Origin: Desulfobulbaceae bacterium
GTDB taxonomy: Bacteria > Desulfobacterota > Desulfobulbia > Desulfobulbales > Desulfocapsaceae
Assembly: GCA_009773475.1 (NCBI GenBank)
Contig: WSXV01000011.1
Span: 1-64,000 of the forward strand
DNA: 64,000 nt
Direction of reading: 5' to 3'
Position 1 is the first letter of the stretch, and every line of letters begins with the position of its first letter. The position numbers and the translations under genes are program-made. The notes under the pieces are model-generated. The model had not been told where the DNA came from and did no database searches. It was given only the letters and a program-made list of their open reading frames with translations. Below are positions 1,118 through 13,985 of this stretch, piece by piece.

Positions 1118-2425
1118 TTACCAAATGTTATGTTGACGCTTCATCGCATCCTGCTCAGACTCACCTTCCTGCATGAAATGGATGGCACCGCAGCCCGGGC
1201 AGATATAACCGCCCTCGGGGACAATCTCATGCTTCTCAAGTTGATGGCCGTTCAGCATCTTCTCTCCGGCTAAATAGGCAAAACCGATAAAGGAAAGGCC
1301 AAAAAGAGTGGCCATGATTTCATGGAATGAGGGTTTGTATTTAATGATCTCAAGTCCTTCTTCTACGCCCAGCGCGTGATAGACAGAGACCATCTGGCCT
1401 GGGATTACAATATCGTAACGCATGAAAAAGATGCCGATCATCATCAGGCCCGTGGCCCACAGGATCATGTTGTAGTTCGTTCCCCGTGACAGAAAGAGAA
1501 GAAAAAGAGGCAGTACCATGCCGAAAAAGATATCAAAAACCCAGAAATTGACCGAGTAATCACCATTGATCATGGACATGATGACCAGGGATTTGTCGTG
1601 CGATACCATGCCGGTAACGATCTTCCAGATGGTGAAGAAGATGATCGTGGAGATGAGAAAGATGGTGACCTGACAGACGGCCTTCATTGCCCGTTCCATG
1701 CGCAGATTCATGATGCTGGGGTTTATCTTCCATGCCAGAGTAGTCACAAACAGGATGGCGCAACCACCGGACATGCCAGCCGAAAAGATAAAATAAATGG
1801 GCAGATACGGCCCATACCAGAAGGGGCGGCCATGCAACATGCCAAAGACCGCGCCGAGATTACTATGCGCCGCGATCCCGACCACCAGCCCAAAGAAACC
1901 CATCAGTCGGGACAGGCTATGGTTTTGCTCGAGCAGAAAGTAATATTCTATGATCATGAAAACCAGATAGGCTCCATAGAGGGTTCCCATCCACCACATA
2001 TTTGAGCTCAGGTTGGGGGAGATGACATTGTAAATGGCCATTCTAAAAGGATTCTCAATGTCAAAGAAAATAATGCAGAATCCGCCCAGGATAAAGATAA
2101 TGGACATGAAGACGGCGCGTTTGGCGATGGGCATAAAGGCCTCACCGCCAAAGACATGGCCGATGGAGGAAATAATGCACAACCCGGTGGAGGTGACCAC
2201 GCAAAAGACATAGGCGGAGATTAAAATTCCCCAGGAAATTTCCCTGCTTACATTGTACACATGATGGTACCCGGTGATCATTCCGTGTACTCCGACGACT
2301 GCGCCAATCAGGGTAAGAAGGGCGAAGAATCCCATAATCATAAAATAGCCAGGGCTTGCTTTTTTCAGGGCGTCAATGCCGTGATAGCCCCATCTTTTAG
2401 CGATAGCAATTGTACTTCTATTCAT
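1118..2425 (-). CDS. NrfD/PsrC-family integral membrane protein with C-terminal CxxC ribbon
   Basis: A polytopic membrane protein of 435 residues whose hydrophobic helices fill roughly residues 25-390. Family members bind quinol in the membrane and exchange electrons with the partner ferredoxin, and some contribute to energy conservation. The start has AGGTGAAA upstream. After the last helix there is a cytoplasmic or periplasmic tail containing ICPGCGAIHF near residue 408, which looks like half a rubredoxin or zinc-ribbon knuckle; this is not a usual part of NrfD. The gene lies between the hexaheme cytochrome (75 bases upstream) and the ferredoxin (about 40 bases downstream), so the three are one operon. 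Confidence 0.85.
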   Translation of the reverse strand: MNRSTIAIAKRWGYHGIDALKKASPGYFMIMGFFALLTLIGAVVGVHGMITGYHHVYNVSREISWGILISAYVFCVVTSTGLCIISSIGHVFGGEAFMPIAKRAVFMSIIFILGGFCIIFFDIENPFRMAIYNVISPNLSSNMWWMGTLYGAYLVFMIIEYYFLLEQNHSLSRLMGFFGLVVGIAAHSNLGAVFGMLHGRPFWYGPYLPIYFIFSAGMSGGCAILFVTTLAWKINPSIMNLRMERAMKAVCQVTIFLISTIIFFTIWKIVTGMVSHDKSLVIMSMINGDYSVNFWVFDIFFGMVLPLFLLFLSRGTNYNMILWATGLMMIGIFFMRYDIVIPGQMVSVYHALGVEEGLEIIKYKPSFHEIMATLFGLSFIGFAYLAGEKMLNGHQLEKHEIVPEGGYICPGCGAIHFMQEGESEQDAMKRQHNIW

Positions 2426-2499
2426 CGTTTCACCTAAATGATTAGTTTGTTATTTATTAATAGGGAATCTGAAGATTATTTTTGGCAGTATCACGGTTT

Positions 2500-3222
2500 T
2501 CAATGATTGTTCTTGCCGGTGTCCTTGTCTTTTTTCAGGCTGCTACTCTGTTGAGCGTCGTATCCTTTGGCGCCGATATGGCAAACGGTACAGCGGGTCA
2601 GATAGCCAAAGGCCTGCGAAGAATCATGGCATGTGCCGCAGTATTTATTGTGGAGTTGCTCCAGGTGTTTCCTTTTGTCTCCGGCAGTAAGACCGGGCTG
2701 TTCAGCTCCTTCGATGGAACCCTTTTTCATGGCGAAGACTTCCTTATGGCAGGTCTCACATGCAACTTTTCCCTTTTGTAGATGGATGGAGTGATCAAAG
2801 GCAACAGCCTTGACGGGAGAGGTAAAGACGATGGGGGCTTCAGGGGCAAAATGGCAGGAACCGCACTGAGTGCTGCTTTCAAAGGCTGTGCTTCCATCAT
2901 GACAGGTCCCGCAATATTTTCCTTCCTTAAAGGATTTCATTGTGAAATCGCCATTTTTTGCAGTGCCGCCTTGCTCCATGGGAAAAATATCTTCATGGCA
3001 GCTATCACAGGCTAGGCCGGCATCCATGGTATGGGTTGTATGGGTGAATATTGCCTTGGTTGGGGTGGCCCAGATAATGGGTTCCTGCGGACCATACCTA
3101 TCAGCATCGTATGGTTCTGCCGCCATACTGATGTTTGCTGAAAAAAGAGCTGCCACAAGAGATGCCGAAAAAAATGTGGTCATCGCTGTTAAGCTTACAG
3201 TGGATGCTTTGTTTGTGATCAT
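2500..3222 (-). CDS. Periplasmic hexaheme c-type cytochrome (two c7-like triheme units)
   Basis: 240 residues with an N-terminal signal peptide (hydrophobic stretch ending near SMAAEP, about residue 35). Six CxxCH heme motifs are visible: CDSCH, CGTCH, CGSCH, CETCH, CGTCH and CTVCH. The pattern repeats twice: FxHxxH before CDSCH and again before CETCH, followed by CGTCHDxSxAF, so the protein is an internal duplication of a cytochrome c7 triheme unit. It is first in the operon, with AAGGAGG about 11 nt before the start. It would pass electrons between the periplasmic cytochrome pool and the NrfD/ferredoxin subunits. Composition recalls the Qrc complex (hexaheme QrcA, ferredoxin QrcC, NrfD-like QrcD), but the molybdopterin-like QrcB is absent and the gene order differs. 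Confidence 0.88.
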   Translation of the reverse strand: MITNKASTVSLTAMTTFFSASLVAALFSANISMAAEPYDADRYGPQEPIIWATPTKAIFTHTTHTMDAGLACDSCHEDIFPMEQGGTAKNGDFTMKSFKEGKYCGTCHDGSTAFESSTQCGSCHFAPEAPIVFTSPVKAVAFDHSIHLQKGKVACETCHKEVFAMKKGSIEGAEQPGLTAGDKRKHLEQLHNKYCGTCHDSSQAFGYLTRCTVCHIGAKGYDAQQSSSLKKDKDTGKNNH

Positions 3223-3373
3223 TGGTGTGCTTCTGCCTCCTTATATTTATTGAATTGTTTCCCGCCCCTTGATTATAGAGGAGGATCATTTAGTAATAAT
3301 CTTATTTCGTTAGATTCAGCTGGATGATTGATCATGGTAGCAAAAGGGGGAGGCACCAAGATATGTCAAATTT

Positions 3374-3397
3374 TAGATTTTTCAGCTGAAAAATCTA
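3374..3397. repeat. 24-base perfect palindrome, possible terminator
   Basis: A perfect 24-base palindrome centred on CAGCTG, with arms rich in A and T, sits 2 bases past the stop codon of the truncated sensor gene. There is no clean T-run after it on the minus strand, so it is a weak terminator or an mRNA 3'-end stabiliser. Confidence 0.5.
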
Positions 3398-3399
3398 GA

Positions 3400-4305
3400 T
3401 TAAAATTTTTTCAATATGGCTGCAATACGCTCCCCGGCAGAGATGATTTTTCCCAGAATTATTTTTTCTTCTGTGTCTTCGCTACTTTCCTCAAAAGAGT
3501 CGGAAAGCAGTTGTGCATAATTGATAATGCCATTGGACAGATTGGTTCCCTCATTAATAATGGCTGCAGTTTGTTGGTTATGTTTTATGAGAGACTCGCC
3601 TTTGTTTGTGTCTGGAAGTTGGTGATGTGACAATTCAATCAAGGTGTCAGTCAGTTTTTCAATTTCAGCACATGCGCTGCTGCTGACTTTAAAGTCCTGT
3701 GACTGAACACCCTCTGCGCTTACTTGATCAGCAAGGCGAAAAAGGGGAATCAGGGCCTTCTGGTAGAGCAGGATCAAGGTGACGCTGATGATGCAGATGA
3801 TCATGCCCAGTGAGCCTATCATGATGGTCTGAAAGTGAACCACCTTGGCGCGCATCTGGCTGACAATAATCCTGTCAAACTGGAGAAGATACTCTGCCAG
3901 GGTTCGCATCTGATTTTGCAGTTTGAGACTGTGGGCCACCTTGTCTTCAGTGGTGGTAATATTTCTGGAGGTTATGGCAAGCCCGGAAAGGTCAATCTGT
4001 TTTGCCATGTCAAGTTTATATTCCGGGGGGATGAGGTCGCTTTCCTGGAGGCGGACCAGCGTTGCATTCAGGTCTTTGAAGTCTTGGGAGGCAGCCGCAG
4101 CCTTGTCCCAATCATGGGTGATCAGGGATTCTGTGATCCGTTCGCGAATGGTGGAAAATTGAAAGATGGACTCCTCACTCTGGCGGATAATGGTGTTATA
4201 CTGTCCGGTAAGCAGATACTGACGAAATCCCAATAGTAGAACCACGATGAGAAGGATGGCAACCGCAACGAATGCCCGATATCCGGTTTTCTTTAGAGAG
4301 TGCAT
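3400..4305 (-). CDS. Membrane sensor ending in a degenerate histidine-kinase dimerisation domain
   Basis: 301 residues. Transmembrane segments near residues 11-30 and 160-182 bracket a helical extracytoplasmic sensor region; a HAMP-like stretch follows (about 183-225). The C-terminus reads like the dimerisation helices of a histidine kinase: GIINYAQLLSD and GERIAAILK match GIINFAQILLD and GERIASIIK of the kinase encoded at 9547-10686. The residue aligning with that kinase's His160 is Asn251, and the protein stops before any ATPase domain. No ATPase remnant lies in the 177 bases downstream. It therefore cannot be a normal kinase; a docking or scaffold role through the dimer interface is inferred. 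The start has GGAG 8 nt upstream and overlaps the end of the ftsH paralogue by 13 bases, so the two are translationally linked. Confidence 0.75.
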   Translation of the reverse strand: MHSLKKTGYRAFVAVAILLIVVLLLGFRQYLLTGQYNTIIRQSEESIFQFSTIRERITESLITHDWDKAAAASQDFKDLNATLVRLQESDLIPPEYKLDMAKQIDLSGLAITSRNITTTEDKVAHSLKLQNQMRTLAEYLLQFDRIIVSQMRAKVVHFQTIMIGSLGMIICIISVTLILLYQKALIPLFRLADQVSAEGVQSQDFKVSSSACAEIEKLTDTLIELSHHQLPDTNKGESLIKHNQQTAAIINEGTNLSNGIINYAQLLSDSFEESSEDTEEKIILGKIISAGERIAAILKKF

Positions 4306-6197
4306 GACGATGACTCCCCGATTTTGCTGTTGCTGCAGCCTTGACAGGCTGGACAGATATCGCAGTCAAGTTCTTCTGGACGGCCGGATTCAGCTTTCAT
4401 CTTGTTTGAACAGTTGAGAATGATCTCAAATTCTTCATTGTCGAGGGTTTCAACCTGAATAAGAATCTCGGTCAGATTTTTTAAAAGATCAATTTTTTGA
4501 TTGAGAATAGTTTTAGCTTCCTCATAGGAGCTGGCTAGGATCGCTTTGATTTCCAGGTCAATGGCCTTTGCGGTTTCATCGGCCATGGAAAGACGTTGAG
4601 ATGCCGAATCTAAAAATCCACTGTTGTCAAACATGAAGGCCTGGGGCCCCAGGTGTTCACTCATTCCCCATTTACAGATCATATTGGTTGCGATCTCGGT
4701 TGCCTGTAGAATATCGCCCTGGGCGCCGGTGGAACGTTGATTAAAGGCGATTTCCTCGGCGGCGCGGCCACCCATGAGAATGGTGATTTTATTTTTCAGG
4801 TAGGTATAGGAATAGGCGTGCCGGTCAAATAGGGCGAGTTGTTGTGTTTGACCAAGCGCCCTTCCTCTGGGAATGATGGTGATCTTATGGAGTGGGTCGG
4901 TTTCAGGCAGAGATTTTGCGATTATGGCATGCCCGGCTTCATGGTAGGCGAGAATGTTTCTCTCTTTCTCGGTCATGACCAAGCCTTTGCGCTCAACGCC
5001 CATCAAGATGCGATCACGGGCCAGCTCGAAATCCGTCTGGTCAACGGTCTTTTTACCACCCCTTGCAGCCATCAGGGCGGCTTCGTTGACTAGATTGGCA
5101 ATATCGGCTCCGGTAAAGCCAGGACACATCTGGGCTATCTCATGCATATCGAGTTCAGTGGCCATCTCTATTTTTGAGGTGTAGATCTGCAGGATTTTCT
5201 GGCGTCCATTCATGTCGGGGGGGAGGATGTTGATCTGACGATCAAAACGTCCGGGGCGACGTAGAGCGGGATCGAGAATATCCGGCCTGTTGGTGGCCGC
5301 CAAAACAATAATATTGTCGGTGGAACTGAATCCATCCATTTCAACCAGTAGGGCATTCAGGGTTTGACTCCGCTCGTCACTGCCACTGGCGGAACCGCCT
5401 CCGCTGCGACTGCCGCCCACCGCATCGATTTCATCAATAAAAACAATGCAGGGAGCGTTCTTTTTGGCCTCTTTGAACAGGTCGCGCACCCGTGAGGCAC
5501 CGACTCCAACAAACATCTCAACAAAATCAGAACCACTGAAGCTGTAAAATGGGACGCCCGCCTCCCCGGCAATGGCACGAGCAAGCAGCGTCTTTCCAGT
5601 TCCCGGGGGGCCTTGCAGCAAAACTCCCTTGGGGATGGTGGCCCCAACCTGGCTGAATTGATCTGGATTCACCAGAAAAAGGACAATTTCTCGAAGTTCT
5701 TCCATGGCTTCAGGGATGCCAGCCACATCTTTGAAGGTCACGATCTTGTGGCCGTCATTGGGAAGAATCAATTTGTCTGTGGCAAATCTGCTCTTCTCCT
5801 CTTCTTTTCGCATCTTACTGAGCGAAAGAACAATGACAAGAGTTAGGATTGCACCATAGAGAAGGCTAAGACTGTGGAGGATAAATGCAGAGTGGTCTTG
5901 GTTGAAGATGATGCGGATATTTTTGTCTTTGAGCTCCGCAATCAGCTCTTCAGGGTTGGGAATAGTAGTGATATAGGTGAATCCGGGATTAGTGCTGTTT
6001 TCTGCAGCCCTATGACTGACCACAACTCTGTTACCGGTGAAAATCATTTCGGAGATATCATGATGATTTAGGCAGTAACGAAATTCACTGTAATTTCTTT
6101 CAGGTAAACGATGCTCAACGGTCCATAAAACATAGAAACCAGCGGAAAAAACTGTAAAGAGGAAAAAGATAAAGAGATTTCTTGTAAGAATTGCCAT
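4293..6197 (-). CDS. ftsH: FtsH-family ATP-dependent zinc metalloprotease, paralogue with Cys-rich tail
   Basis: 634 residues of canonical FtsH layout: membrane segment 8-27, small periplasmic domain (about 30-105), second membrane segment (about 108-127), AAA+ module with Walker A GPPGTGKT (196-203), pore motif FVGVG (229-233), Walker B FIDEID (253-258) and [13 protein letters not shown]...RRPGRFDR. The protease active site HEAGH is at 419-423, with the third zinc ligand Asp in GAQGDIL. It degrades membrane and soluble proteins processively from the cytoplasmic face. The last 25 residues contain [10 protein letters not shown] plus a further Cys two residues from the end, which is not typical of FtsH and could bind a metal or cluster. 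It lies next to the peptide trio and overlaps the pseudokinase gene rather than the usual ftsH neighbours, so it is probably a specialised paralogue. Confidence 0.92.
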
Positions 6198-6318
6198 GAT
6201 AAAGAGTTCTGTGGGAATACAGGGATTGATAACAGGTACATTCTTGTGAAGTTAAAAGCAGATTCAATGGGTTTGTAGACATACAGAAGTTTTTGAATCA
6301 GCAATGAAAGAATATACC

Positions 6319-6359
6319 ATATAAAAAGCCGGCAAAACAGGAGAACCGACTTTTTATAT
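6319..6359 (-). terminator. Terminator of the small-peptide operon, probably bidirectional
   Basis: Arms 6319-6332 and 6346-6359 match at 13 of 14 positions (ATATAAAAAGCCGG against CCGACTTTTTATAT) around a 13-base loop. Read on the minus strand the GC core is followed by CTTTTTATAT. It separates the peptide genes from ftsH, so ftsH needs its own promoter in 6198-6318; I could not identify it with confidence. Confidence 0.75.
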
Positions 6360-6440
6360 GTGTTGGGCCTTGTATTTATTAGGAAATCTGAAAGGCAATT
6401 GCTTAGTCCTTTTTGGCGAAAGAGTTTGCTTGAAAAATGT

Positions 6441-6659
6441 TTAAATTCCCGTGATGGCAGAGAACATACTTTTTACAAGGGTTATGGGGCCGCCATTGGT
6501 CATCAGGGCGCTACATAAACATACAAGACTCCAAACCCCAATGCTTGCTGCAAAAACAGCGGTAATAACGGTTCCAACTTTATATAATTCGCTGTCAGTT
6601 CCGGCAGATTCGTGAGCGGTTGCTTTGGCTGGGCTTTTGGTGATCGCTGTATTTTCCAT
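6441..6659 (-). CDS. Small membrane peptide 1 of a tandem paralogous trio (72 aa)
   Basis: 72 residues: a polar N-terminus (about 1-25) followed by a hydrophobic segment (about 27-52) and a short amphipathic tail. It shares a pattern with the next two genes: K then a VxxxF block, GxW[AS][VL], then GG about 17 residues on, then L[VI]xxxFxA. Here these read IGVWSL, NGGP and LVKSMFSAITG. The start has AAGAGGA upstream. No family is recognised. Small size, a single membrane anchor and the nearby FtsH gene fit a membrane modulator or stress peptide, but function is not established. Confidence 0.7.
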   Translation of the reverse strand: MENTAITKSPAKATAHESAGTDSELYKVGTVITAVFAASIGVWSLVCLCSALMTNGGPITLVKSMFSAITGI

Positions 6660-6738
6660 AATGATAGTCCTCTTAATGATGGAAGGTCTTTTGTTAAGTC
6701 TCGTTTTAGTAACTTTTTTACGATTGAAAATATTTAAA

Positions 6739-6957
6739 TTATCCGTTGATTGCTATGAAGAGACTGTTCACAAGGTTTAACACGCCCCCGCTGTTTATGG
6801 TGCCGCTGATCATATTGGCTACAGCCCAGACACCGATAATTGCGGCCGTAAATCCTACCACTGTTAACGCTGTTTTGGAAATTTCAGAGCTGCTGGTAGT
6901 GGTGGTGGTTGAGGTTGCTTTAGATTTGCTTTGATCAATTTTACTTGCTGTTTTCAT
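6739..6957 (-). CDS. Small membrane peptide 2 of the trio (72 aa)
   Basis: 72 residues from the ATG at 6957, chosen because a strong AGGAGG lies just upstream; the frame is open 18 codons further without a ribosome site. The N-terminus is rich in Lys, Ser and Thr (a run of five Thr), followed by a membrane segment holding IIGVWAV, then NSGG and LVNSLFIAING. It is the best match to the shared pattern of the trio. It starts 50 bases after the preceding peptide gene and is co-transcribed with its neighbours. Function unknown. Confidence 0.72.
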   Translation of the reverse strand: MKTASKIDQSKSKATSTTTTTSSSEISKTALTVVGFTAAIIGVWAVANMISGTINSGGVLNLVNSLFIAING

Positions 6958-7007
6958 GGTAACCCCTCCTATTTGGCGACTCTTATATTTTAAAAAATCA
7001 GCGTGTA

Positions 7008-7229
7008 TCAACTCAGAGCACTAAAATATTGAAGGATCAGTCCTGCTGGTCCACCACAAGCAATCAGGCCGGCGGTCATACAGGCAACGGCCCAAGCACC
7101 GCAGAGGAGTGAGGCAAAACCAATAACCACGGTGCTGTTTTTTTGCAGTTCAGTAACAGCTTGGGTTTTATCGCTAGCAAGATATCCGGTTTTTATATCT
7201 GTCTTTGTTGTTGATGTCGCTGTTTTCAT
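7008..7229 (-). CDS. Small membrane peptide 3 of the trio, first in the operon (73 aa)
   Basis: 73 residues from the ATG at 7229, preceded by AGAGGG. An upstream ATG at 7289 is in frame but lies almost on the predicted transcription start, so it is unlikely to be used. Polar Lys/Thr-rich N-terminus, then a membrane segment with CGAWAVAC, then ACGGP and a shortened tail (LQYFSAL). It contains three Cys, partly shared with peptide 1. It is the promoter-proximal gene, about 67 bases downstream of the sigma-54 start site. Function unknown. Confidence 0.7.
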   Translation of the reverse strand: MKTATSTTKTDIKTGYLASDKTQAVTELQKNSTVVIGFASLLCGAWAVACMTAGLIACGGPAGLILQYFSALS

Positions 7230-7306
7230 GGCGTCCCTCTTAAGATTAAGTTGGAGATATAGCGTGCTGCGGGTTTTTCTCTCATTCATGTGTTTGACCT
7301 ATTCAT

Positions 7307-7322
7307 TGCATGCGGCATGCCA
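7307..7322 (-). promoter_or_regulatory. Sigma-54 (-24/-12) promoter of the peptide operon
   Basis: On the minus strand the site reads TGGCATGCCGCATGCA. GG and GC are separated by exactly 10 bases, as in the consensus TGGCAYR-N4-TTGCW; only the first T of the -12 box differs. Transcription would begin near 7296, giving a leader of about 67 bases to the first peptide gene. Sigma-54 promoters need an NtrC-type activator, and one is encoded just upstream at 7723-9543. Confidence 0.8.
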
Positions 7323-7491
7323 TAATGATGAAAAACTGATAATGAAGCTTTGACGTAGGCTTAACATCTTGTTTATTGATGGTTTTTTGTAAAATGCTAG
7401 CTGTGGCAGAGAGGGGATGAGGAGGTTCGGGAGAGCTTGAGCGGTTGTTGTAAAAGTGTTGCTGTATTGCAATGTTGTTGTTTTGTTGTTT

Positions 7492-7529
7492 CAATACTGT
7501 TGCATTCGCATGATTGTGCTACAGTATTG
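7492..7529. promoter_or_regulatory. Inverted repeat, candidate upstream activator site
   Basis: Arms CAATACTGTTGCA (7492-7504) and TGCTACAGTATTG (7517-7529) are complementary at 12 of 13 positions around a 12-base spacer. The repeat lies roughly 200 bases upstream of the predicted sigma-54 start, a usual place for an NtrC-family enhancer site. It has no T-run, so it is not an obvious terminator of the regulator gene. A partial extra half-site (TGCTGTATTG) lies at about 7460-7470. Binding by the adjacent activator is inferred. Confidence 0.55.
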
Positions 7530-7722
7530 AGAGTCGAACCACCTTGGAGAAATTGATATAAATTGGGTGAAAAGGGATATTTGTTAGGGGAAGAAAGTCT
7601 TCTCGGAGATTTTTTGATTTCGGCAGTGAAGTGCAGGAGGATGTTTTGTTGATAGGTATGAATAAGAATTGCTTCAACCAGTTTTGATGTACATCGGTGA
7701 GTCAGGATTTTCGTGATGAGAC

Positions 7723-9543
7723 TTATTCAATAAAGTCATCGGCATGAATGTTGTGACGCTGCATCTTTCGGTACAGGGTGCTGCGATCCACACCGAGCAT
7801 GCGGGCAGCCTTGGATTTGTTACCTCTTGCGCGTTTCAGGATGTCAATAAGCTCATTTTTTTCACTGATGTAAGGAGGATATGTGGGATTTACTGCGAAT
7901 GTTGGCTGGGGAGCAGGATGTGCCGAGCTTGGAATTGATTTCTCAACTGCCGAGGCATTTCTTGGCAGTTGCGGTGAACGGATTTCTTCTGGGAAGTGTT
8001 CCTGTGAAATTGTCTGGCTTTCACACAGAACGCAAGCACGCTCAATGACATGACGGAGTTCCCTGACGTTTCCGGGCCAGGCATAAAGGGAGAGTAGCTT
8101 CATGGCCTGATCAGAAATCCCATGAATGTTTCTCTTCAACTGTTCCCGGAACAAAGAGAGGAAGTGATACGCCAGTATGGGGATGTCTCCTTGCCGGAGA
8201 CGAAGGGGCGGTAGCTTAATCTCCACTACCTTCAGCCTGTAGTAAAGATCTTCGCGGAAGTTTCCGGCCCGGACTTTTTCAATAAGATTGACATTGGTGG
8301 CAGCAATGATCCGGACATCAACCTTGACCGGGCTATCCTGGCCCACTGGTGTAAAGGTCTTTTCCTGAAGAAAGCGGAGGAGGCGCAGTTGCGTTCGTGG
8401 AGAAATATCACCGATCTCATCAAGGAATAGGGTGCCATGATCAGCCTGTAAAAGCCATCCTGGCCGGTCACGATCAGCGCCGGTGAACGAGCCTTTTTTA
8501 TGTCCGAAAAGTTCACTTTCCAGAAGATCTTCAGGGATAGCAGCACAATCAACCTTAATAAGAGGCATGTCTTTTCGCCTACTTTCAAGGTGCAGTGATT
8601 CTGCTGCCAGTTCTTTGCCGGTACCAGATTCTCCTGTGATCAGGACGGCAGTGTCAACTTTCCCCACATTTTCAGTGAGTTTGTAAACGTCCTGCAGCAA
8701 CTGGCTTGCCCCGACAAAGCCGTGGAAATGATTTCGAAGAGAGCTGTTTGCATCAGGCTCCGGCAGGGTGATGTCTCTTGCGACGATGACAACGCCGCCA
8801 AATTCATCTTGGCCGTCCTGGAGTGGTGAGGCATTCAGGCTTATGATTCGGATGTTGCCGTCGGGCTCTTGACATTCAATCTGATGTTCCCGAACCTCCT
8901 TCCCGTTGCTCAATACCTGGAAGGCATCCTGAAGACAAACTCGACTCATTTCATTTGGGAGGGATTTTATTGTGGTTGGCATGGCATCATCATCGAAGGA
9001 CAACCATTTTTTGGCTGTATTGTTGATCTGGATGATATTCATGTCATTGTCAATGGTGATAATGGCGTCGCGAACAGAACTGAGGATAGCTTCTAAACAG
9101 CGTTTATACTTTTCATTTTCCTTGCGGAGTTGTTTCTTTTCCTTTTCCAGTTGCCAGTGCTGGAGTGCTTGACGGACAAATTTCAGTAGGGTTTCCTTGT
9201 TGACGGGTTTGGAGATGTAATCAAAGGCCCTGTAACGAACTGCCTCGGACGCAGAGTTAAGATTAGGAAAGCCGGTAATCATGACCACTGGGCATTCAAT
9301 CCCGTTTTTTCGAATCTTGCGGAGAAAATCTGTGCCGCGTCCCCCTTCCAGGACTATGTCACTGATAATCAGATCAAATTCATGGGCCTCGATGGCCACT
9401 AATGCCTCGTCCAGATTTGTAACCGTGGTGACGGGGCCATAGCCTTCCCGTGTCAGAAACATCTCAAAGGTCATGCGTATACTTGCCTCGTCATCGACGA
9501 TAAGGATGCGCGCGTTTTTGTCGATTGTATCAACGTATTCCAT
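7723..9543 (-). CDS. NtrC-family sigma-54 response regulator (receiver-PAS-AAA+-HTH)
   Basis: 606 residues. An N-terminal receiver (about 10-125) carries the acidic pair DDE at 17-19, phospho-acceptor Asp62 in LIISDI, and the conserved Thr and Lys (SKPVNKE). A PAS domain follows (about 145-260), then the sigma-54 AAA+ domain with GESGTGK (304-310), the sigma-contact loop GSFTGA (351-356, Ala to Ser variant of GAFTGA) and FLDEIGD. A Fis-type helix-turn-helix (DRSTLYRKM) ends the protein. It would activate sigma-54 promoters when phosphorylated, and the PAS domain may add a second input. It starts 3 bases after the stop of the cognate kinase gene. Its downstream neighbour is the sigma-54 promoter of the peptide operon, the most likely target. 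Confidence 0.93.
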   Translation of the reverse strand: MEYVDTIDKNARILIVDDEASIRMTFEMFLTREGYGPVTTVTNLDEALVAIEAHEFDLIISDIVLEGGRGTDFLRKIRKNGIECPVVMITGFPNLNSASEAVRYRAFDYISKPVNKETLLKFVRQALQHWQLEKEKKQLRKENEKYKRCLEAILSSVRDAIITIDNDMNIIQINNTAKKWLSFDDDAMPTTIKSLPNEMSRVCLQDAFQVLSNGKEVREHQIECQEPDGNIRIISLNASPLQDGQDEFGGVVIVARDITLPEPDANSSLRNHFHGFVGASQLLQDVYKLTENVGKVDTAVLITGESGTGKELAAESLHLESRRKDMPLIKVDCAAIPEDLLESELFGHKKGSFTGADRDRPGWLLQADHGTLFLDEIGDISPRTQLRLLRFLQEKTFTPVGQDSPVKVDVRIIAATNVNLIEKVRAGNFREDLYYRLKVVEIKLPPLRLRQGDIPILAYHFLSLFREQLKRNIHGISDQAMKLLSLYAWPGNVRELRHVIERACVLCESQTISQEHFPEEIRSPQLPRNASAVEKSIPSSAHPAPQPTFAVNPTYPPYISEKNELIDILKRARGNKSKAARMLGVDRSTLYRKMQRHNIHADDFIE

Positions 9544-9546
9544 GGC

Positions 9547-10686
9547 TTATACGCTGGACGAAGGAATTTGAACAAGCATTTCGGTGAATTGGTGCATGAT
9601 CGAATTGACTTTGATGGAACCGGCATGGTCCTGGATGATCCCGAAACTGATACTGAGGCCAAGGCCGGTTCCCTGGCCGGCAGGTTTGGTGGTGAAGAAT
9701 GGATCAAAGAGTCGGTCAAGAATACCCTGGGGAATCCCGGTGCCGTTATCACGGAGGCTGGTTTGGATCCAGGCTCGACCGTCTTCCAGGGTGATGGGCC
9801 GGCAGGAGATCAAAATCTTCTTTTCTGGCGCGGGAATGGGGTAGCGTTCATTCAAGGCAAATCGGCTGTTGCTCAGGAGATTGAGAATGACCTGCTGCAA
9901 CTGGCGAAAATTACCATTGATAGGACAGGGGCCGTCGAAAAAGTCTGTGCTGATCTGGATTCCGTCATTTTTGCATTGATGCTCAACCAGTGACAAGCTG
10001 GTCTTGATGACATCAACCATGTCAATGGGTTCAATTTCCTGGTCGCCTTCTCTAGCGAAGGAGAGCAGATTTTTAATAATGGAGGCAATTCGTTCGCCTT
10101 CATTGATGATTCGGGTAAGGAGTTCTTCTTCGAGGGAGTTCTTTTTGCTGTCATCCAGAAGAATCTGGGCGAAATTAATAATGCCGGTGATGGGATTGTT
10201 CACCTCATGGGCAACACCTGCGGCCAGCTCGCCGATGGCAGCCAGTTGCGCTGTCCGCATGGAGTCGACTTTGCGGACTTCCTCGGAGGTCAATGCACGG
10301 GCGATTAATAGTATTTTTCTGACAAGCCCGTCATTCTCCTTGATCGGCGAGATGTTGAGCAGATACTCTCCAAAAAGACCGGGCAGTCTGGTCTCCTCCA
10401 CTCGGGGAGTACAAGTCTGTAGAAAGGATTCCAGCGGGCATTGGAGGTGGGGAGAGCTGCCGCCATGAATAATCTTACAGATTCCCATGCCGATAATCTG
10501 ATCTTTTGTCTTGTGGGCAGCGGCGATGGCGGCCGGATTCGCATCGAGGATGATCCCTTCAGGGCTGACAACCAGTACCGGGTCCTGGATGGTGTCGAAA
10601 AGCAGTTTGCCGGTTCCTGCAGGAGAAAAGCTTTTCTGATACCTTTCGGGGCTGCGCTCTGTGTTTTTCTGCCGGGAGGAAGGCAT
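9547..10686 (-). CDS. PAS-domain histidine kinase, cognate to the NtrC-type regulator
   Basis: 379 residues without a membrane segment, so cytosolic. A PAS domain spans about 28-140 and includes Cys residues (C70, C83, C92) that could sense redox or ligand. The dimerisation domain has the H-box GVAHEVNNP with His160. The ATPase domain shows DNGTGIP and the glycine-rich GQGTGLGLS. It would autophosphorylate and transfer to Asp62 of the regulator encoded immediately downstream (3-base gap). Upstream, 11 bases separate it from the YqeY-domain gene, so the three form one operon. Its DHp helices are closely similar to the truncated sensor at 3400-4305. Confidence 0.93.
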   Translation of the reverse strand: MPSSRQKNTERSPERYQKSFSPAGTGKLLFDTIQDPVLVVSPEGIILDANPAAIAAAHKTKDQIIGMGICKIIHGGSSPHLQCPLESFLQTCTPRVEETRLPGLFGEYLLNISPIKENDGLVRKILLIARALTSEEVRKVDSMRTAQLAAIGELAAGVAHEVNNPITGIINFAQILLDDSKKNSLEEELLTRIINEGERIASIIKNLLSFAREGDQEIEPIDMVDVIKTSLSLVEHQCKNDGIQISTDFFDGPCPINGNFRQLQQVILNLLSNSRFALNERYPIPAPEKKILISCRPITLEDGRAWIQTSLRDNGTGIPQGILDRLFDPFFTTKPAGQGTGLGLSISFGIIQDHAGSIKVNSIMHQFTEMLVQIPSSSV

Positions 10687-10697
10687 GGGATTTGTAC

Positions 10698-11342
10698 TTA
10701 TCCGGCCAGCGAGTTGAGAACTTTTTTGACCATATTGCCGTCTGCGCCTTTACCAAAATGTTTCATGATGGTCCCCATGGCCTGCATTGGGGTTTTGAAC
10801 TGGGAAAGATCGATATTCGCTTTGGTCCAGGCCAGGATTTCATCTTCGTCGGCTATTCTGGGCAGATACGATTCAAGAACCTGCAGATACTCGGAAGTTG
10901 TCTGCTTGGCGAATTCCAGGGTTTGTTTTTCAGACTTGCACAGCCCCATGATCACGGAGATGATTTCATCGTGGGTAATTTCATCATCGCGCTTGGGACG
11001 GCTGCTTTTTTTGCCGCTTTCAAGGGTGATGGGTAGAGTTATTCTGGTGGGGAATTCGCTGATGATAATGCGGATGGCGCCCTTGACTGCTTCATTTCTG
11101 CTCAACATGGCAGCTTTCAGATCACTGCGCAGTTTGGTGAGCAGGGGAATGCCGGATGTTTCGCTCCAGCCATATTCATTCAGTTCGCTCATTGATGTGC
11201 TCATGGGGGTAAAGGTTTGGATGGACGCGGTTCGCCCGCGTCCTGTTAGTTCCGTATACTGTTTCATTGATTGAATTCCATCTGTGACTACTGTGAATCC
11301 GCTTGTGTATTGGCGAATTTTAATTCTCTCAAGTATCTTCAT
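10698..11342 (-). CDS. GatB/YqeY-domain protein
   Basis: The C-terminal 150 or so residues match the YqeY family (about 150 aa), which resembles the tail domain of the GatB/GatE amidotransferase subunits and is thought to bind tRNA; its cellular role is poorly defined. Recognisable blocks are LRSDLKAAMLSRNE near the start, QTLEFAKQT, LPRIADEDEI and the C-terminal MGTIMKHFGKGADGN. The start is uncertain: 11342 gives 214 residues with a 50-60 residue extension, while 11204 (MSTSMSELN) fits the family length better; neither has a strong ribosome site. First gene of the kinase/regulator operon. Confidence 0.75.
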   Translation of the reverse strand: MKILERIKIRQYTSGFTVVTDGIQSMKQYTELTGRGRTASIQTFTPMSTSMSELNEYGWSETSGIPLLTKLRSDLKAAMLSRNEAVKGAIRIIISEFPTRITLPITLESGKKSSRPKRDDEITHDEIISVIMGLCKSEKQTLEFAKQTTSEYLQVLESYLPRIADEDEILAWTKANIDLSQFKTPMQAMGTIMKHFGKGADGNMVKKVLNSLAG

Positions 11343-11498
11343 ATCGGAATCCAGTAATACGTGTCAAGGGAAAAAGCCGGAACAGGTTGGACCGTGCTGA
11401 AGATCTTCCAAGCGCTGGAAACAGTTGGTTCTGCTAGCTTTTCCTTTGGATTTATGCTATTTAGTAAGCAATATGTGGAGAGGTTTCTTTAAACTGGC

Positions 11499-13985
11499 AT
11501 GGGTCAAACGGATACGATGCGGCAGGGTGTGATCGAAGAGAGGCTTCAGGGGATTGTCGAGCGGGTCACCTATCATAATACTGAGACTGGCTGGTCGGTG
11601 CTCCGAGTTAAGTGTTTTCAGGAACACGAGCCGGTGACGGTGACCGTGCATCAGACCCGCGTTTTTGCAGGAGCCACCATGAAGTTTTTCGGCTCTTGGG
11701 CCGTTCATCCTGGGTATGGCCGCCAGTTCAAAGCCCTGCGTGCCGAGGAGCAGAAACCGGCCACTGCCGCCGGGCTGGAGAAGTATCTGGGCTCCGGTCT
11801 GATCAAAGGGGTGGGGCCGAAGACGGCCCGCAGGATCGTCACTCATTTCGGCAAAGACACCCTCGATATCTTTGAAGGTCGGATTGAAGACCTGCTCCTG
11901 GTGCCGGGCATTGCCCATAAAAAACTTGCCGGCATCAAGTCGGCCTGGGAAGAACACCGGGCCGTGCGTGAGGTGATGCTCTTTCTTCAGGGGCATGGTA
12001 TCTCGACCCTGTTTGCGGTACGCATCTACAAAAAATATGGGGATCAGGCCGTTGCTCTGGTGCGGGAGAACCCATACCGGCTAGCAGACGATTTCTATGG
12101 GATCGGCTTCTTCTCTGCCGACAAGGTGGCGCTTTCTTTAGGTATTCCTCTGGACTCAGCACTCAGGATTATGGCTGCCATTCGTCATATCCTGGCTGCC
12201 TCCCGGGAACAAGGTCATTGCTTTCTGACCACCAGCCAGATCCAAATGCAGATCAAGGAACTTTTGGAGATGGACCTGGGAGATGGACTTGCGGTTTATC
12301 TCCAGACCATGGAACGGGAGAATCATCTTAAGACCCGTCTTCTTGCCATCGATGACACTACTCCTGTTTCCTGTTACTATTCCAAAACCCTCTATTACGA
12401 CGAGAAGAATTGCGCTGAATGGCTCAAGAAGATGTGTTCCCCCCTTGCCGTTGATGTCAAACGAGTGGAACATTGGCTGTCAGCCTACAGCGCCACCCAG
12501 AATTTACAGCTCAGTGCCGAACAGTATGGGGCAGTGGCTGGTATTGCCGCATGTCGCTGCGCGATCTTGACCGGTGGGCCGGGCTGCGGCAAGACCACTA
12601 CCACCAAGACCCTGGTCATGCTGTTGCAGGCCATGAAGCTGCGTGTGGTTCTGGCTGCACCGACGGGACGGGCCGCCCAGCGCATGGGTGAGGTGATTGG
12701 CGTTGAAGCCTTGACCATTCATCGTCTGCTGGAATATCAGGGGGGCGGGTTCAAACGAAACCAGGAGCTGCCTTTGGAGCTTGACTGCCTCATCGTTGAT
12801 GAGTGCTCCATGCTTGATATCAGCCTGACGGCCTCTCTTTTGGCAGCCATACCCGAAGGGGCGCGCCTGGTTCTGATTGGAGATGCCGACCAGCTGCCTT
12901 CGGTGGGCGCCGGCAATGTGCTGGCGGATTTGATTGCCTCCGGAGTGGTCCCCCTCTTCACCTTAAATAAGGTATTTCGGCAGGCCGGGGAATCCTCGAT
13001 TATACGGTATGCCCATGCCATCAACACCGGTGAGATTCCCCGCATTCCGTCTCCCTTTAAAGAACCGGGACTGTGGAAAGAAAAGGTGGATTGCCTTTTT
13101 CTTGATTCCAACGAGGCGACCCAGGAGCAGCTGCGGGTGATCGCCAGGGTCCGAGATCATTTCAAGTTGTCGGGCCGTGAGGTCGAGGCTCAACTAAGCC
13201 AAGAGCAGCTCTACACCGGGGCTGATGAAGAGTTGCCGGCTCCAGGATTGAGGACGAAGCTCGATCTCCCGGATCAATACCGTCATATCAATTTTGGTCT
13301 GCTTCAGACGGCGGAAAATAGTGCCGATGAACTGCGGGCGGTGCTAAAAAAGGTGCATCCCTGGTCGTCCCTCTATTATGGTCTGACCGCCCAGGAGGTG
13401 ATTGTCAGATTGTATACTGAATGGATTCCGAAATATTTTGGGAAAGGGTGTGAAATCCAGGTGCTTTCCCCCATGACCCGTGCCAGTCTGGGAACGGGCA
13501 CCCTGAATCGGACCCTCCAACAGGCGGTGAATCCCGGTTCGGATGACAAGGGGCAGCTTATTCTTGGGGAACGGATCTTCCGAGTGGGGGACAGGGTTAT
13601 CCATCGCCGCAATAATTATGTGCTTGGGGTTTTTAATGGTGATATCGGGGTAATCGAGGGGGTAAACGCCCTTGACTTGACCTGCAGGGTGCGTTTCTTT
13701 GCAGGGGACCGGGAAGTTGAATACCAAAAAGATGAAATCAGTGAACTGGAGCTGGCCTACGCGATTACCATTCACAAATCACAGGGCAGCGAGTTTGATT
13801 GTGTGATTATCCCCATCGTCAGTCAGCATTTTAAGATGTTGTTTCGTAATCTCATCTACACAGGTTTGACCCGGGCGAAGAAACTGGCGGTTTTCGTCGG
13901 TACCAGACAGGCCTTTTCCATGGCGGTTCAGAATGAAGATACGGCAAAGCGGCAGACGGCACTGGCGGAGCTGTTGCGGGGGTAA
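11499..13985 (+). CDS. recD2: RecD2-type SF1 DNA helicase
   Basis: 828 residues. The N-terminal OB-like region is followed by tandem helix-hairpin-helix motifs (KGVGPKTARRI near 108 and LLVPGIAHKKLAGI near 140), typical of RecD2, which works without RecBC. The helicase core has Walker A GGPGCGKTTT near 357, motif II DECS, and the C-terminal motifs YAITIHKSQGSEFD and YTGLTRAKK. It unwinds DNA 5'-3' in replication and repair. The segment around residues 530-620 (with QLSQEQLYTGADEE) is not one I recognise as conserved and may be a lineage insertion. Divergent from the YqeY operon, with 156 bases between them. Confidence 0.92.
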   Translation: MGQTDTMRQGVIEERLQGIVERVTYHNTETGWSVLRVKCFQEHEPVTVTVHQTRVFAGATMKFFGSWAVHPGYGRQFKALRAEEQKPATAAGLEKYLGSGLIKGVGPKTARRIVTHFGKDTLDIFEGRIEDLLLVPGIAHKKLAGIKSAWEEHRAVREVMLFLQGHGISTLFAVRIYKKYGDQAVALVRENPYRLADDFYGIGFFSADKVALSLGIPLDSALRIMAAIRHILAASREQGHCFLTTSQIQMQIKELLEMDLGDGLAVYLQTMERENHLKTRLLAIDDTTPVSCYYSKTLYYDEKNCAEWLKKMCSPLAVDVKRVEHWLSAYSATQNLQLSAEQYGAVAGIAACRCAILTGGPGCGKTTTTKTLVMLLQAMKLRVVLAAPTGRAAQRMGEVIGVEALTIHRLLEYQGGGFKRNQELPLELDCLIVDECSMLDISLTASLLAAIPEGARLVLIGDADQLPSVGAGNVLADLIASGVVPLFTLNKVFRQAGESSIIRYAHAINTGEIPRIPSPFKEPGLWKEKVDCLFLDSNEATQEQLRVIARVRDHFKLSGREVEAQLSQEQLYTGADEELPAPGLRTKLDLPDQYRHINFGLLQTAENSADELRAVLKKVHPWSSLYYGLTAQEVIVRLYTEWIPKYFGKGCEIQVLSPMTRASLGTGTLNRTLQQAVNPGSDDKGQLILGERIFRVGDRVIHRRNNYVLGVFNGDIGVIEGVNALDLTCRVRFFAGDREVEYQKDEISELELAYAITIHKSQGSEFDCVIIPIVSQHFKMLFRNLIYTGLTRAKKLAVFVGTRQAFSMAVQNEDTAKRQTALAELLRG

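Follow-up and report, generated by a model that had tools for sequence, protein, structure and literature searches.

The small protein CIII of phage lambda is a modulator of FtsH, and the sigma-54 envelope-stress regulons include PspF-Psp (phage shock) and ZraSR-ZraP. The FtsH modulators SpoVM of Bacillus (cited in PMC11364881) and YqgP (cited in PMC13039401) likewise bring together a small or membrane protein and FtsH. The locus type described here, found in a stretch of 64,000 nucleotides of a Desulfobulbaceae genome (the window), is unlike SpoVM, YqgP and CIII in having two to six paralogous transmembrane (TM) peptides, sigma-54 two-component control and an FtsH paralogue of its own, which the peptides would presumably contact. 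It shares with PspF-Psp and ZraSR-ZraP a bEBP that would drive small membrane or envelope proteins and a dedicated sensor nearby; PspA, PspB, PspC and ZraP were not found among the 10 window proteins covered by each of two family scans, the neighbours in other loci having only been sampled. One window protein (3400-4305) resembles the NarQ-type sensors in its sensor fold, with no kinase domain and a HisKA-like region that has Asn for His, and the redox neighbours in the window belong to the same superfamilies (NrfD, Fe-S and cytochrome) as complexes of the DsrMKJOP, Qrc and HybAB type, the genes of one further locus (L131) having been read by eye.

The titles and abstract openings returned by literature searches hold no description of this peptide/FtsH system, and no NrfD/Fe-S/cytochrome complex with these peptides was found among the papers listed. 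The main text of a paper on the D. vulgaris sigma-54 regulome (PMC4641369) contains neither 'FtsH' nor 'small membrane', and PMC4464133, which mentions both FtsH and NrfD, concerns hflC in YcdY chaperone operons. The novelty claimed is that of a peptide family and a gene system, not of a new biochemical activity. The explanation tentatively preferred is a conserved, probably signal-induced membrane-microprotein system in which the peptides would act with or on a dedicated FtsH, adjusting membrane redox complexes.

Three paralogous membrane peptides in tandem

The peptides are encoded on the minus strand as P1 (7008-7229, 73 aa, ATG at 7229), P2 (6739-6957, 72 aa, ATG at 6957) and P3 (6441-6659, 72 aa, ATG at 6659), each a predicted single-span membrane peptide, and their ATGs are preceded by the purine-rich ribosome sites AAGAGGGA, AGGAGGGG and AAGAGGA. 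This bears out the three adjacent frames of 72-73 residues, each with a ribosome site, that a preliminary description of this DNA had listed as paralogous, and alignment gives identities to P3 of 35% (P2) and 31% (P1). Of the shared pattern proposed there, the GxW[AS] motif (within GAWAV, GVWAV and GVWSL), the later GG and the ensuing L(I/V)xxxFxA hold for all three peptides, but the GG starts 13 residues past the Trp and not about 17. P1 and P2 are the sole further matches to P3 (E 1.1e-7 and 2.6e-5) up to E 10 in a tblastn search of the genome, which is 91% complete at 3.03 Mb. The NG86 omega of 0.04-0.36 over nine orthologue pairs, six of which include window peptides, indicates that the P1, P2 and P3 frames are coding and under purifying selection.

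Peptide anatomy was assessed in 113 peptides, those of the window and of the 40 loci fetched first (L041-L080), which are largely the best P3 matches; two more frames were left out for want of a usable Met. The best 21-residue hydrophobic window is preceded by a mean of 31 residues, K/R residues are richer before this window than after it in 111 of the 113 peptides (a tie in the other two), and the C-terminal segment has a mean hydrophobic moment of 0.31 vs 0.22 for shuffled segments (110 scorable peptides). An AF2 peptide model, of low confidence (pLDDT 66) and silent on partners, has a disordered start, a helix at residues 13-55, a break at the GG and a second helix at 58-70. An N-in topology is probable for the family.

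Seventy-one peptides of the window and L041-L060 were placed in a tree, based on a short alignment for which the program warns that many forks are unresolvable. In it the P1, P2 and P3 of the genus form separate groups, P1 with 13 rows (ultrafast bootstrap 96), P2 with 17 (97) and P3 with 26 (100), and family members are included in the last of these. The whole triplet is present twice in four relatives (L042, L043, L048 and L052), the second copy lying behind its own sigma-54 element. The separate groups and the duplication of the triplet as a block with its promoter suggest that P1, P2 and P3 may work together. A peptide relative of 86-110 aa, which has a second hydrophobic stretch and a GxW-like motif succeeded by D(F/Y)YTHIKGxEYLI, often follows a peptide (L131 1824-2123 and 16256-16627; also L062, L111, L120, L124, L136, L138, L139, L166 and L167); the two examples scanned had no Pfam match.

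No family in Pfam, NCBIfam, PHROGs or PADLOC is matched above its curated cut-off or consistently by 31 members of the peptide family, the most that share a match being three. The most-matched family is phrog_10090 (at most 3 of 31 members, best E 0.0033), the best single match is NF004749 (a polyprenyltransferase; 1 of 31 members, E 4.3e-5), and the best PDB match of the peptides has an E of 0.86; a PDB match to Rnf subunit D (E 0.97) was dismissed as chance. Defence genes were set aside on the PADLOC result (0 of the 31 peptides). A phage or plasmid origin was rejected too, with no P3 relative in viral_contigs (one scan, which reaches close relatives only), no P3 match among plasmids up to E 1 by tblastn, and PHROGs matches that are scattered and weak.

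The peptides are small, hydrophobic and in tandem, contain a GG pair and include one (P1) with a weak Sublancin match (E 0.0057; 17.2 bits vs a cut-off of 26.9), and could on these grounds be secreted or membrane-active antimicrobials of the class II bacteriocin type, with FtsH serving clearance or immunity. The GG, however, lies near the C-terminus and not at the end of a leader, the Sublancin match is confined to 1 of the 31 members with none in PADLOC, P1, P2 and P3 are kept apart across the genus, and no exporter is constantly linked: one ABC-ATPase cluster occurs in 10 of 41 loci and, in several, adjoins a cluster whose one scanned member is PBP-like. With the GG at the wrong end, no constant exporter and only scattered weak matches, a bacteriocin-type peptide was rejected as highly improbable.

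Promoter, upstream repeats and terminator of the peptide unit

Upstream of P1 lies a -24/-12 element, TGGCATGCCGCATGC (7308-7322, minus strand), in which the GG, the GC and the spacing are exact and kept in relatives, but with two departures from TGGCACG-N4-TTGC its earlier characterization as near-perfect was generous. The anticipated transcription start near 7296 is consistent with the position of this element and would leave about 7 nt before an alternative ATG at 7289, so that the ATG at 7229 is the likely start of P1. A genome scan for TGGCACG-N4-TTGC with at most one mismatch returned 51 sites, vs 28 for the reversed pattern, and the window element is absent from the 51; the element by itself thus proves little. 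Its position says more: none of 300 mononucleotide shuffles of the upstream 300 nt reached as good a score.

Conservation of the element was scored in the window and L041-L080 at a cut-off of at least 12.5 of 14.5 within 250 nt upstream, excluding two peptides with gaps of <15 nt. An element precedes 35 of 42 leading peptides (in 100 shuffles of this set, 0.18 on average and never more than 2), five of eight peptides that follow a gap of >250 nt, and none of the 61 inner peptides. The seven leading peptides that lack it belong to L054, L060, L062, L066, L073, L077 and L079; those of L060 and L073 are found at contig ends, and that of L062 borders on the limit of the fetched sequence. Across 39 further loci (L107-L126, L129-L144 and L165-L177), 17 of 40 leading peptides, fewer than half, reach the cut-off (0.3 in shuffles) and 27 score at least 12. 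Of the nine loci outside the window's order, L107-L115 (L109 and L110 represent one genome), only L108 reaches the cut-off. This lower frequency in the further loci speaks against the preferred explanation. With start codons that are approximate, no element at the cut-off was found upstream of the genes for FtsH (0/35), the pseudokinase (0/29), the response regulator (RR; 0/33), the histidine kinase (HK; 0/27), the Fe-S protein (0/25) or the cytochrome (0/24), and placement of FtsH under the same promoter type was rejected on its 35 cases. The peptide unit combines a GG-N10-GC spacing kept in relatives with a GSFTGA bEBP encoded nearby, and the peptides are apparently turned on as a block by their own signal-dependent promoter.

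Farther upstream, TGTAGCACAATCATGCGAATGCAACA (7498-7523) is a candidate activator-binding palindrome. A pattern taken from the palindrome itself, TGTNGCAN12TGCNACA, has its sole perfect genome match in the window and one other match with one mismatch. Of 28 RR-peptide intergenic regions, 22 have TGCAACA, in either orientation, farther upstream than the promoter, compared with 0.8 expected from mononucleotide shuffles; the heptamer came from a ranking of k-mers and is thus post hoc. A wider regulon in the genome was rejected for lack of a second perfect palindrome site, as judged with one pattern of a motif that varies between loci.

The terminator that had been said to close the unit is an intrinsic hairpin at 6316-6363 (minus strand; -21.3 kcal/mol, z -4.4), missed by a simple terminator scan whose loop limit is 8 nt, the loop of this hairpin being 11 nt. 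Of 24 loci inspected, 22 have a hairpin with a T-rich tail between the last peptide and FtsH, a count with no shuffle control for the relatives; the hairpins of L045 and L061 are unconvincing. Rfam gave no match at gathering score in 3000-11500.

FtsH, signalling and redox neighbours

The FtsH paralogue noted in the neighbourhood by the preliminary description lies at 4293-6197 (minus strand), scores 707 bits against TIGR01241 (cut-off 600) and possesses both the Walker A motif (GPPGTGKT) and the HEXXH motif (HEAGH); its C-terminus is a Cys-rich tail. One other FtsH was found in the genome, with 50% identity across residues 79-594. A tree of 77 FtsH rows, constructed with a quick method, puts 61 on one side of a branch (SH-aLRT 99), and of these 53 scored as peptide-linked within 6 kb and eight did not; the other 16 rows are 2-kb pieces chosen as housekeeping or other FtsH, for which the absence of peptides was assumed. 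Four of the eight unlinked rows (L159-L162) came without flanks and, once these are read (L165-L168), show a peptide no more than 8 kb away, the second FtsH of L057 has a peptide just past the fetched stretch (G091:C74:21335), and the peptide of L111 is 6.1 kb off. The FtsH of L134 and L137 have no peptide, nor is there one in another 10 kb of flank (L171 and L170, respectively). On this tree, the peptide-linked FtsH is a subfamily apart from the housekeeping FtsH. According to passages of PMC13039401, which also tests the sufficiency of membrane determinants alone, FtsH typically needs an unstructured cytosolic tail of ~10-20 aa, and the peptide tails are long enough by this measure (mean, 31 residues before the hydrophobic window).

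Two signalling proteins reported next door, an NtrC-type activator and its kinase, are present and look intact in their domains. The sigma-54 response regulator (7723-9543, minus strand) has a receiver, a PAS domain, an AAA+ domain with GSFTGA and a Fis HTH, and falls below the AtoC, NtrC, ZraR and PspF equivalog cut-offs, and the PAS histidine kinase (9547-10686, minus strand) has an intact H-box (AHEVNN) and a HATPase domain. The kinase gene is preceded by that of a YqeY-like domain protein (10698-11342; E 8e-9), which is found within 5 kb of the peptides in 10 of 61 loci, all from the window's genus. Two genus members have other genes between regulator and peptides: a Pfam scan of L050 gave JetD_C/DUF3322, DUF3375 and SbcC-like matches (Wadjet-type defence) at 2354-9168, and L051 has genes that cluster with these copies.

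The protein of 301 aa at 3400-4305 (minus strand) is a NarQ-like membrane sensor with a degenerate DHp. Its AF2 model (pLDDT 69) has NarQ sensor fragments as the best PDB match (TM-score ~0.5, Foldseek probability 1.00, E 0.058) and no PDB match at E <= 0.001. A 55-residue stretch of its C-terminus aligns (42%) with the DHp of the adjacent kinase and has Asn in place of the phospho-acceptor His (AAIINEGTN vs AGVAHEVNN). This Asn is invariant in 12 of 12 aligned sequences, and there is no HATPase match; the protein does not qualify as an active histidine kinase, and the pseudokinase label first given to it is apt. By eye, the homologues in L065 (4976-6970) and L068 (1-1519) are full kinases that keep the His and, further on, the motifs DWGGG and GTGLGL; loss of the catalytic part from such a kinase is therefore the best reading of the window protein. 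Intact and degenerate forms of this homologue coexist among the relatives. Pseudokinase and kinase may pair via their DHp helices.

Conserved co-occurrence, which the preliminary description had made the mark of a system, is seen across 61 peptide-centred loci (window included), in which genes within 5 kb of a peptide encode FtsH in 42 (on the same strand in 39; the 42 include L119, a 26%-identical AAA protein that is probably not FtsH), HK in 39 (eight of them at <=30% identity), RR in 35, the pseudokinase in 34, NrfD in 22 and the cytochrome in 20. These loci are not independent, as 20 are of the window type from the genus and its near kin. FtsH or pseudokinase matches served to fetch 29 more stretches, three as flank extensions only and 26 as centred loci; 19 of the 26 hold a peptide and seven have no detectable peptide (L134, L137, L140, L169, L172, L173 and L176). 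The FtsH of L173 and L176 lies beside NapC-type cytochrome genes. L140, an FtsH/redox locus of the third arrangement described below, has no peptide in the 20 kb read, and similar peptides occur elsewhere in its genome (G037; L062). The 80 peptide loci have FtsH (at least 45% identity) within 8 kb in 62 cases, a share inflated by the 19 loci fetched via FtsH or pseudokinase, along with RR in 51, HK in 48 and any redox gene in 57.

In 18 of the 80 peptide loci, a few of them at contig ends, no FtsH lies within 8 kb, so some peptides may work without a neighbouring FtsH, and a second use of the peptide family is likely. The same loci would suit general envelope or proton-motive-force stress proteins that stabilise the bilayer, akin to the phage-shock or Zra responses, with FtsH as a parallel output or mere neighbour, and so would a sigma-54 activator beside small membrane proteins and a NarQ-like membrane sensor. 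The linked FtsH, however, forms a separate subfamily that is mostly found beside a peptide, unlike a chance neighbour, and neither Pfam nor NCBIfam holds a matching small-protein family; a stress-protein role for the peptides is judged decidedly unlikely. FtsH may nonetheless be a mere neighbour that degrades other proteins.

Beyond the pseudokinase gene, the window encodes a redox module on the minus strand, composed of a c7-type multihaem cytochrome (2500-3222), an NrfD-family membrane subunit (1118-2425) and an NrfC/DsrO-like Fe-S protein (255-1124) that is below both equivalog cut-offs and whose exact start is uncertain. A redox gene lies within 8 kb in 53 of the 62 loci with FtsH, vs 4 of the 18 without FtsH. 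The 3.03-Mb genome has six Fe-S subunit homologues, which puts chance proximity within 8 kb at a few per cent by our estimate. Three gene orders recur: HK-RR-peptides-FtsH-pseudokinase-cytochrome-NrfD-FeS (the window type); HK-RR-peptide-FtsH-pseudokinase-NapC-type cytochrome-FeS-NrfD (L125 and L126); and kinase-RR-FtsH-cytochrome-FeS-NrfD-peptides (L129-L133, L141, L142, L144 and L166-L168), in which a sensor kinase may or may not precede the peptides and some loci have gaps.

Small subunits such as CydX and CcoQ serve oxidases, and the peptides could by the same token be accessory or assembly subunits of NrfD-type quinone/cytochrome complexes, FtsH being the quality control of the same complex. 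Redox genes near 57 of 80 peptide loci, when the genome has only six Fe-S homologues, and the combination of peptides, FtsH, Fe-S protein, NrfD and cytochrome in differently ordered locus types are as such a role would have it. The peptide unit, however, has its own promoter and terminator while the redox genes are without such a box, a stoichiometric subunit would hardly be expected in two to six diverged tandem copies, and 9 of 62 loci pair peptides with FtsH in the absence of any redox gene within 8 kb, such that the redox linkage may be partly an inherited neighbourhood. A subunit role is considered rather unlikely.

Family distribution and proposed role

Homologues extend beyond the strain, on which the first account of the peptides as a system had depended, with P3 relatives in 69 of 97 related genomes (own included; tblastn, E <= 0.1). 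A 31-sequence profile matched 13 of 297 phylum-wide genomes at E <= 0.001 (own included), five in the window's order (own included) and eight outside it, and all peptide profile searches were conducted within the phylum. A named-genome scan with a single P3-orthologue pattern, which reaches close relatives only, returned 24 loci with P3-type orthologues, most titled Desulfocapsa, Desulfocapsaceae or Desulfobulbaceae, one Desulfoarculaceae and the remainder less precisely named proteobacterial MAGs; several of the 24 are the same contigs as in the other genome sets. Four features go beyond the preliminary description: linkage to redox genes, an FtsH subfamily of its own, a palindrome upstream of the promoter and duplication of the triplet as a unit.

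The tentatively preferred explanation, a signal-induced system of peptides acting with or on a dedicated FtsH, can be set out as a sequence of steps. The pseudokinase and the kinase would pair through their DHp helices, so that an envelope or redox signal sets the phosphorylation of the activator, which would bind the TGTTGCA/TGCAACA repeats and strongly switch on the peptides, while FtsH, past the terminator and without a sigma-54 box, would stay at a basal level. The peptides would insert N-in with an unstructured cytoplasmic tail of ~30 residues, a TM helix with many small residues and, past the GG(P) hinge, a short amphipathic helix, and would probably assemble as P1/P2/P3 hetero-oligomers. 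In this form they may act on the dedicated FtsH, whether as adaptors, as competitors or as regulated clients, and so direct the protease towards quinone-linked redox complexes or keep it from them, in a remodelling response of the respiratory membrane.

A more specific proposal, which is correspondingly doubtful, is a new class of respiratory-membrane control, distributed among sulfur-cycling bacteria of the Desulfobulbales type, in which sigma-54-induced P1/P2/P3 hetero-oligomers would dock on the dedicated FtsH subfamily and turn it towards the exchange of NrfD-type quinone/cytochrome complexes. Control would lie with a split sensor whose NarQ-like pseudokinase lends its input to a soluble kinase.

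None of the libraries searched has a family for the peptides, yet they are frequent companions of a whole FtsH subfamily, and their recurrence beside a distinct FtsH and electron-transfer genes in sulfur-cycling bacteria suggests an undescribed form of respiratory-membrane remodelling. If true, this would add a further example of FtsH specificity set by small proteins and an example of a histidine-kinase relative that keeps only its sensing and dimerising half. The carriers are relatives of sulfur disproportionators and sulfate reducers, organisms whose membrane energetics are poorly understood and, if the link holds, a named protease, a set of inducible peptides and a pseudokinase sensor would offer a handle on how these anaerobes adjust their respiratory complexes.
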